Under the pieces are notes generated by a model. That model was not told the DNA's origin. It worked only from the letters and a program-made list of their open reading frames with translations, and searched no databases. Position numbers and translations under genes: made by a program. Positions 25,981-37,191 of a DNA stretch of 64,000 bases are shown one piece after another. The DNA is from Natrinema saccharevitans (lineage in GTDB: Archaea; Halobacteriota; Halobacteria; Halobacteriales; Natrialbaceae): assembly GCF_001953745.1 (NCBI RefSeq), contig NZ_LWLN01000001.1, positions 1,054,001 through 1,118,000 of the forward strand, in the 5' to 3' direction. The number at the start of each line of letters is the position of its first letter. Position 1 is the stretch's first letter.

Positions 25981-26134
25981 ATCATACAGTCATCGATCCC
26001 CGATTTTACGCCGTATTACTGGCAGAAACGACGTCCGATCCAGACTGTCACTCGTTTCCGATGGGTCGAACGCTCGAGCCCTCGCACCCACGCCCGCTCG
26101 AGTCTGACCTGTCGGTCTCGAACGCGTCACGTCG

Positions 26135-26488
26135 TCACTCTCGGTCCGACAGGTCCGGCTCGTTCGGCTCCGACACCGCGACCTCGATCCCGTCGGCGTC
26201 GATCCGAACCCGAAGGCTATCCACGGTCGCCTCGTAGGCGGTCGTGTGCGAGCCGTCGTCCTCGAACCGCACACACTCCGCGATGAGGTCGCTCTCGAGG
26301 AGGTTGTTGATCCGGCGATAGACGGTCGCCGACGAGCTGTCGGTCCGCTCGGTCAGTTCCTTGGCCGTCTTCGGTCCCTCGCTGGTCGCGACGAGGATCG
26401 TCCGGGCGCAGTCGTCCCCGAGGACGTCCAGCTGTGTCGCGGAGTTGGTCGTCGATTCCGATCGCGTGTCACTCGCGTGCGTTGACAT
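26135..26488 (-). CDS. Winged-helix (ArsR/TrmB-like) transcriptional regulator
   Basis: 117 residues from the ATG at 26488; an in-frame ATG 12 bp upstream is also possible. The helix-turn-helix is clear: DDCARTILVATSEG, KTAKELTERTDSSSATVYRRINNLLESDLI, then a wing with VRFEDDGSHTTAYEAT. This is the common haloarchaeal helix-turn-helix group that precedes genes for halocyanins, sensors and membrane proteins. The C-terminal 30 residues are acidic. There is no gene immediately downstream on this strand before padR, so its target is not apparent. A TATA element on this strand at 26629-26639 lies about 145 bp upstream. Confidence 0.87.
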   Translation of the reverse strand: MSTHASDTRSESTTNSATQLDVLGDDCARTILVATSEGPKTAKELTERTDSSSATVYRRINNLLESDLIAECVRFEDDGSHTTAYEATVDSLRVRIDADGIEVAVSEPNEPDLSDRE

Positions 26489-35546: not shown

Positions 35547-35783
35547 TGCCGGACCCTGGGGGCGGCCAACAGGTAAACGTCCCGAAGCGGCGCGGTCGGT
35601 GATCCCGATCAGAGCGACTCGAGGAGCATGTCGCTGTCGGCGATGGGCGAGATTAGATAGCCACTCACGCAGAAGAAGCCGATGGTAGTCGTAGGACGGA
35701 CGACTGTGTGACTTTCCTCTCGTCCCCGCGTTACGTACAATGGCTGCTCCGTAAACTACAGCTGCCATAAAACATTGGAAAAA

Positions 35784-35795
35784 TTTTAATATTAG
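35784..35795 (+). promoter_or_regulatory. Candidate TATA box of halocin-like gene
   Basis: TTTTAATATTAG is strongly AT-rich. A start about 25 bp downstream gives a leader of about 100 nt, unusually long for a haloarchaeal gene, and places a stable hairpin next to the start codon. Confidence 0.45.
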
Positions 35796-35880
35796 TGATT
35801 AGGTAATTACAGTTATTATGAAGGAATACAACCCATGAAAATGTTAGCAAGACTAGTAATATTACATACAGAAATATGCA

Positions 35881-35900
35881 TGGGTGCTTGAATGCACCCA
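35881..35900 (+). promoter_or_regulatory. Hairpin next to the halocin-like start codon
   Basis: TGGGTGC and GCACCCA form a perfect 7-bp stem with a TTGAAT loop. It ends 16 bp before the ATG at 35917. It could hide or present the translation start; this is inferred from position. Confidence 0.45.
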
Positions 35901-35916
35901 ATAAGAGTAACCAGAT

Positions 35917-36759
35917 ATGAACAGGAGAAAAATACTCCGAACGGTAGCCGCGAGTGGAATTAGTGGTGCGAGTATGGTCGCCGCCGGCATGTCCGCTGCT
36001 GGTGCAGAGACCTCTGACGGCGAGTTCACCATCAGTAATGTACGACTCAAACAGACGAGCGCTGCGCATGCGGACCGCGTTGCTATCGAAGAAACGGCGG
36101 AAACGAGCCAATTGGCATCCGTGATGGCTCAAGAAACGGGCCGAGAAAGCAGCGATAAGACGATCTCCTACCATCTGGAGGCGGAAGAACGGGATGTTCG
36201 GGAGCAAGCTCCCGCGCTCACGATCGTTCCGATGAAACCGGGAGACAAAGAGTGGAGCGAACTGTCGATTTCCGATGTCGGTCTACAGTTCGTTCTGACC
36301 GCGGAGGAGAACAGCACTCGATCTCCGGTCGCCGCGATGGGAATGTCCTATCGCGACTCCACCCCGAAAACACCCGATTCGGACACTGTCTCTACCGCGA
36401 GTAATGGTCTCGCTCTTGACCTCTACGGGCAGGATGAAACTGGTTCGATCGGCACCGTGGCCACGCAGTCCGTCGATGGCGCCGCCTCGACGGCTGTACC
36501 GGGTTCGGACGGAGTGAGTACCGCCGGTCTCGGCTGTGACGGCTGTAAGGTCGTCGTCGGTGCTATCTGTGTCGGTGTCAACGGAACTCTCGGCCGTTCG
36601 GGATGTGTTTCCCGTTGTGTCCCGATCGTCGTTAGTAACCCTGCTCTCGGAGGAGGCTGCGCAGCGCTCTGTTATGCCCTCACGTCGCAACTAGGCAAAA
36701 TCGCCTGTGGTTCTGGAGGTCTGTCGACAGCAGTCTGCCACACGATCGACTTCTGTTGA
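35917..36759 (+). CDS. Halocin C8-like precursor: Tat signal, immunity region, C-terminal microhalocin
   Basis: 280 residues, close to the 283 of the halocin C8 proprotein. Residues 1-30 form a Tat signal (RRK at 3-5, hydrophobic core, then SAAGA). Residues about 31-202 are a polar, cysteine-free region that corresponds by position to HalI, the immunity half. Residues about 203-280 form a compact, glycine-rich peptide with exactly ten cysteines (207, 210, 218, 230, 234, 248, 252, 264, 274, 280), ending in DFC; halocin C8 also has ten cysteines and ends in a cysteine. By analogy, the precursor is exported folded, then cut to release a heat-stable antimicrobial peptide. Neighbouring DNA is AT-rich, suggesting a recently acquired island. 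Confidence 0.85.
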   Translation: MNRRKILRTVAASGISGASMVAAGMSAAGAETSDGEFTISNVRLKQTSAAHADRVAIEETAETSQLASVMAQETGRESSDKTISYHLEAEERDVREQAPALTIVPMKPGDKEWSELSISDVGLQFVLTAEENSTRSPVAAMGMSYRDSTPKTPDSDTVSTASNGLALDLYGQDETGSIGTVATQSVDGAASTAVPGSDGVSTAGLGCDGCKVVVGAICVGVNGTLGRSGCVSRCVPIVVSNPALGGGCAALCYALTSQLGKIACGSGGLSTAVCHTIDFC

Positions 36760-36762
36760 CTG

Positions 36763-36784
36763 ATAGGGTAGCACCCTATTTTTT
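36763..36784 (+). terminator. Intrinsic-type terminator after the halocin-like gene
   Basis: ATAGGGT (36763-36769) and ACCCTAT (36773-36779) form a perfect 7-bp stem with an AGC loop, followed by six T (36779-36784). It begins 4 bp after the halocin-like stop. On the other strand the same DNA holds the last codons of the convergent small membrane-protein gene. Confidence 0.8.
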
Positions 36785-36955
36785 GGGAAGGCCTCGTATC
36801 AGTAGTTCACTGATTCCGGACGCTACCGCCCCTACGGTTAGTATATAATACCATTGCAGGGACGTGGCTAGCCCCAGCAGTGCGATAAGGCCGATACCGA
36901 CGACGAGCGTTATCCAGTGATCCTCACCGACTATTGCTATTCCGGCTCGATTCAT
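36776..36955 (-). CDS. 59-residue two-helix membrane protein, convergent with the halocin-like gene
   Basis: 59 residues from the ATG at 36955 (MNRAGIAIVGEDH); an in-frame ATG at 37033 would add 26 residues from AT-rich leader and is less likely. Two hydrophobic helices (about 15-31 and 35-53) are joined by a short QW turn, and the tail RGLPKK is basic. The stop lies in the terminator hairpin shared with the halocin-like gene. The AT-rich base composition matches that gene and not the rest of the window. It may assist immunity or export, or be an unrelated small membrane protein; I do not recognise the family. Confidence 0.65.
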   Translation of the reverse strand: MNRAGIAIVGEDHWITLVVGIGLIALLGLATSLQWYYILTVGAVASGISELLIRGLPKK

Positions 36956-37191
36956 ACTAATAGCTTTCCGACATAAAACAATATTACTTTCGGTAGTTGT
37001 CACCGATGTCTTATGCCGTTTCCCCAATTTCACTTTACCCGACCGTTTCCGCTCAGCGGTCGAAACTGCATCAAATTCCTCGTTCCGGGTTCACAAATCA
37101 GCGACACGTCGGTTCGCGTCCTGACGTCGCGGGCCCGCCCGATCCCGTTGCCCGAGGCGACGTTCCGACTCGAGGCTGCAAGAACGTGCTG

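Follow-up and report, generated by a model that had tools for sequence, protein, structure and literature searches.

In bacteriocin operons, the toxin gene adjoins a small hydrophobic immunity gene, and orphan immunity genes also occur. To our knowledge, the self-protection of halocin producers has been explained in a single case, that of HalI. A 2019 survey in mBio by Makarova and colleagues reportedly enlarged the halocin C8 family; it may overlap with the set analyzed here, and an earlier mention of membrane neighbors in it is possible. The published precursor of halocin C8 (HalC8), ProC8, comprises 283 aa and releases a 76-aa mature peptide (PMC11509114). We analyzed a 64,000-nucleotide stretch of the Natrinema saccharevitans genome (the window), in which an intact ORF with an ATG start (35917-36759, + strand) encodes a protein of 280 aa. 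Like ProC8, this protein is a single precursor of about 280 aa with a Tat signal and a C-terminal peptide of 76-77 aa that contains ten cysteines, starts with CxxC-x7-C and ends with x5-C, and the two show profile homology over their entire length. Unlike HalC8, it has a different cysteine spacing, lacks a match to PF22862 (Hac8_like_N, the HalI-type N-terminal domain) and lies below the detection limit of TIGR04449, the curated halocin C8 domain; moreover, its gene has a small membrane neighbor, which the HalC8 clade does not.

A preliminary description of this DNA had recognized a twin-arginine signal, ten cysteines and an overall agreement with halocin C8 in domain order, length, cysteine number and C-terminal cysteine, all of which held in our analysis. 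The Tat signal (MNRRKILRTVAASGISGASMVAAGMSAAGA, 35917..36006, +; MNRRKILR...AAGA) aligned with the signals of relatives, including its NRR motif, and would be cut after residue 30. It is followed by a cysteine-free pro-domain (residues 31-203; 36007..36525, +) and a predicted mature peptide of 77 aa (residues 204-280; 36526..36756, +), with a calculated mass of 7352.5 Da with five disulfides. The ten cysteines lie at positions 207, 210, 218, 230, 234, 248, 252, 264, 274 and 280, and there are no others in the protein. The pro-domain ends in a putative processing motif, VSTA (residues 200-203; 36514..36525, +). The corresponding pattern V-[ST]-x-[QAPN], which was picked after inspection, was enriched ten-fold across the family in the 22 residues preceding the first cysteine (p 2.5e-11), directly before the cysteine domain. 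The halocin gene is single copy, with no second copy found in its own genome. An inverted repeat (gggtgc-ttgaat-gcaccc, window positions 35882-35899) was observed shortly 5' of the start codon; a scan with a sigma-70 promoter model, which is not applicable to archaea, found none.

Family membership emerged from the relatives of the query. The query itself had no match at a meaningful score in Pfam or NCBIfam, and no solved structure was found for it; matches to EGF_LRP2 and PHROG were weak, at chance level, and were rejected. Its score against TIGR04449 was below the cut-off, with 0 matches in its own genome. Full-length relatives were found in 25 of 391 genomes of the class, the weakest of which may be chance matches, and TIGR04449 matched in 43 of the same 391 genomes, several of these matches being the very genes that also matched the query; no relatives were present among plasmids, phages and viral contigs. 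We use the name type II for the clade of 17 proteins (16 relatives plus the query) that is sister to type I, the type to which HalC8 belongs. TIGR04449 was matched by 13 of the 17 type II and all 30 type I proteins, whereas PF22862, which HalC8 itself matches with E 1.7e-48, was matched by 17 of the 30 type I and none of the 17 type II proteins. In a profile-profile comparison, types I and II were homologous across almost their whole length (E 4.6e-20, a score of which the shared Tat signal is part); the cysteine domains alone gave E 3.6e-6, and the pro-domains alone gave E 2.6e-5 over only their initial ~50 residues. When profiles were made from type II without the query (16 proteins), the cysteine-domain profile picked the query ORF as the sole one among the 789 reading frames of the window (E 3e-16), and the pro-domain profile ranked it first of the 789 (E 4e-19). 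The next-ranked frame in the latter, unfiltered search was a weak match at window positions 25993-26352 (-; E 8e-4). In the maximum-likelihood tree, which is unrooted and in which many rows are long, a single branch with 100/99 support divided types I and II, and the query fell within type II.

Within the halocin C8-like superfamily, these profiles and the tree place the query in type II, apart from HalC8 proper; it has the superfamily's combination of a Tat signal and a C-terminal cysteine-rich peptide in one precursor, and homology over both the pro-domain and the cysteine domain. Thus, the halocin C8-like assignment of the preliminary description stood at the level of the superfamily but not for type I; the profile search against halocin C8-type domains that it had proposed missed with the query alone and succeeded through the clade profiles. 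The type II relatives in three genomes (G059, G041 and G375, C1:166016) and in Haloterrigena salina (L174) share the clade, the cysteine framework and the pro-domain with the query at about 18-31% identity overall, and their annotation is nameless or merely "halocin C8-like domain-containing." The type II framework suggests a peptide fold that the curated TIGR04449 model can miss, and such genes are therefore under-annotated. In another genome of the same genus (G004), a type I gene encodes a 283-aa precursor, the peptide of which we take to be identical to HalC8.

The difference between the two types is most apparent in the cysteine framework. In HalC8 and its clade, the spacing is 2-7-3-7-13-7-8-8-5, a framework that was not found in the query, which has 2-7-11-3-13-3-11-9-5; most ten-cysteine type II members deviate slightly from the latter. 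As a result, type II is characterized by CX3C-X13-CX3C (C230, C234, C248 and C252 of the query; 36604..36672, +), against CX7C-X13-CX7C in type I. Joint losses of cysteines point to the pairing: five type II proteins have lost both C207 and C280, and two have lost both C234 and C248, each of these joint losses tracing to roughly a single event on the tree; among the aligned type I proteins, one has lost both the third and the eighth cysteine. An alpha-hairpin-like fold would follow from the pairing of C234 with C248 and of C230 with C252. Low-confidence helices were predicted at residues 226-240 and 242-257; the AlphaFold model of the cysteine domain, built from a two-sequence alignment (pLDDT 51.5), has helices in the right places and is too weak to count.

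The pro-domain raises the question of immunity. Mei et al. in 2008 (cited in PMC11509114), judging by their title, reportedly located at the HalI N terminus a helix-loop-helix that HalI immunity requires, and it is only a suggestion that this is the HalI stretch with which the type II pro-domain aligns. One reading of the locus is that the pro-domain gives immunity in cis, as the preliminary description assumed and as HalI does for HalC8 (PMC11509114 and works cited there), with the small membrane gene playing an accessory part or none at all. The domain order shared with ProC8, the alignment, albeit weak, of the initial ~50 pro-domain residues with the N-terminal part of HalI (prob 75%), and a type II pro-domain as conserved as the peptide are consistent with it. 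Nevertheless, the lack of PF22862 throughout type II argues against this reading, as do two observations described below: the membrane gene recurs beside halocins and remains open where the halocin has been lost, and small membrane ORFs downstream are typical of the family. We consider the reading doubtful.

Evidence of selection came from H. salina JCM 13891 (G356), in which the orthologous site downstream of pyrD carries a broken halocin copy, with the N-terminal part missing and the frame disturbed. The final 52 codons of this relic are 92% identical to the query in protein, with dN 0.04 and dS 0.9-1.2 (dN/dS about 0.04). Therefore, strong purifying selection acted on the peptide, and the low dN and high dS also indicate that the ORF is not a chance one.

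The gene lies in a low-GC island of 1.52 kb between pyrD and an AMP-dependent ligase gene (35626..37149). The AT-rich setting noted in the preliminary description was borne out: with 53.7% GC against 67% for the window as a whole, the island ranks lowest among 625 sliding segments of 1.5 kb, and the 200-bp spacer upstream of the halocin gene has 36% GC. All 29 genomes of the genus matched the island flanks in some part, but the island was absent from the pyrD/ligase site in those relatives that had both flanks aligned on one contig. Other genes occupy the site there, with names read from translations: two genomes (G375 and G395) have an MmgE-like gene, four (G025, G091, G307 and G028) have longer metabolic inserts, and G107 has, where the halocin island would be, an IS transposase fragment plus a two-helix ORF of 80 aa (L165:3327-3772). 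Besides the query, island-like DNA was found in the genus only in G393, at a different locus. With such varied fillers in relatives, the island looks like a sporadic insertion. A rival reading takes the cysteine-rich peptide for a secreted structural, signaling or surface protein without an antimicrobial role. We know of no assay of any type II protein; however, the peptide is homologous to HalC8, the best-described halocin, and its patchy occurrence, repeated decay and location on a sporadic island fit a conflict gene, so that a non-antimicrobial role appears highly improbable. In contrast, a halocin-like antimicrobial precursor is, by homology, very probably what the gene encodes.

A gene for a 59-aa membrane protein with two hydrophobic segments (36776..36955, -) is convergent with the halocin gene, whose stop codon is ~16 bp away. 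An inverted repeat read from the sequence between the two convergent stop codons (atagggt-agc-accctat, 36763..36779) might serve as a shared terminator, and it was not among the calls of a terminator scan. The orthologue of the 59-aa protein in H. salina is an open frame that adjoins the halocin relic, with 83% identity and a dN/dS of ~0.16-0.23. In G393, at a locus unrelated to that of the query, a homologous 67-aa gene is convergent with another halocin relic, which covers residues 239-280 at 79% identity. Thus, the membrane gene is open in two genomes in which the halocin has decayed. In G393 it is also doubled, the 67-aa gene adjoining its tandem paralogue, which has a SHOCT tail (L164:5782-6498), and these tandem two-helix genes are possibly stacked immunity genes. 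In a genome from another family (G323), a type I halocin gene is followed, two genes on, by a homologue of the 59-aa gene; with 12 strong loci of the membrane family in 391 genomes, we roughly estimate that such a coincidence would arise by chance a few times in a thousand. We rejected the idea that members of this family always serve as dedicated partners of halocins, because most of its loci are solitary: at 9 of the 12 strong loci, no halocin-like gene lies closer than about 5 kb. The two-helix family alignment excluded L161, a spurious ORF. At one solitary two-helix gene (G067, L150:3113-7456), Tat-secreted proteins without a Pfam function flank the gene, and one of them is apparently frameshifted.

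Like a bacteriocin operon, the query locus thus pairs a putative toxin gene with an adjacent candidate immunity gene that is small and hydrophobic; unlike one, it is archaeal, the toxin is predicted to be Tat-exported with a large pro-domain, the two genes are often convergent, and the immunity gene is a candidate. The assignment of HalC8 immunity to HalI alone counts against the 59-aa gene in this role (PMC11509114). Given its pairing with halocins, we nevertheless regard the 59-aa gene as the likeliest immunity candidate, stronger than the pro-domain, and put its being the immunity gene at an even chance.

Such pairing extends across the halocin family. We grouped the halocin C8-like genes into 41 clusters at 50% identity and, with 278 other genes in the same loci as controls, searched for companions, defined as ORFs of 45-135 aa with at least two hydrophobic segments at most 300 bp downstream. 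Gene calls and helix counts were simple heuristics (ORF plus Kyte-Doolittle), identical for halocins and controls. Small membrane ORFs with 2-4 helices were found downstream in 22 of 41 halocin clusters compared with 19 of 278 controls (p 3e-12), and upstream in only one of 41; three alternative settings gave 19-26 of 41, and the 59-aa gene of the query itself was counted only under a laxer hydrophobicity cut-off. No such downstream ORF was present in the HalC8 clade. The companions are mostly dissimilar between clades, with some recognizably related between related halocins; those of the type II relatives have four helices, or four helices plus a helix-turn-helix, unlike that of the query. 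In H. salina, on the same contig as the relic, a 223-aa protein of the latter kind follows another type II halocin-like gene (L174:5875-6546). A constant position and membrane nature could also suit a protein that helps the halocin to mature, leave the cell or be displayed and that confers no immunity, the more so as some type I loci run on into large permease-like genes. However, a shared export or processing step would favor one protein family, and a gene that stays open after toxin decay is unexpected for an export factor; we therefore consider this role improbable.

Taking immunity as the preferred function, we tentatively propose, at somewhat less than even confidence, that most halocin C8-like loci are toxin-immunity cassettes of two genes, in which a Tat-exported disulfide peptide would be paired with a fast-changing membrane immunity protein of 2-4 helices, and in which immunity genes would be kept or stacked after toxin decay. 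If this is true, the single-gene HalI scheme is the exception. With a downstream membrane gene found family-wide and open twice beside a decayed halocin, the immunity question becomes directly testable through the 59-aa gene.

For the query, we consider the following course likely as a whole. The gene would produce a secreted, ribosomally made antimicrobial precursor of the type II lineage of the halocin C8 superfamily, which, judging from its signal, would be exported in folded form by the Tat pathway. An extracellular protease may then cleave near VSTA|GLGC, at the enriched motif, and release a hydrophobic peptide of ~77 residues and ~7.35 kDa with five disulfides. Judging by the spacing and the joint losses, disulfides C230-C252 and C234-C248 probably hold a helical hairpin at its core, which C207-C280 would close. 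The expected target of the peptide would be the membrane of sensitive haloarchaea, and the producer would be protected mainly by the convergent 59-aa two-helix protein, with the pro-domain perhaps helping before processing. The neighborhood of the halocin C8-like gene in G323, which contains permease-like genes, also includes a second cysteine-rich Tat precursor of a different type (L066:9310-10380, -).
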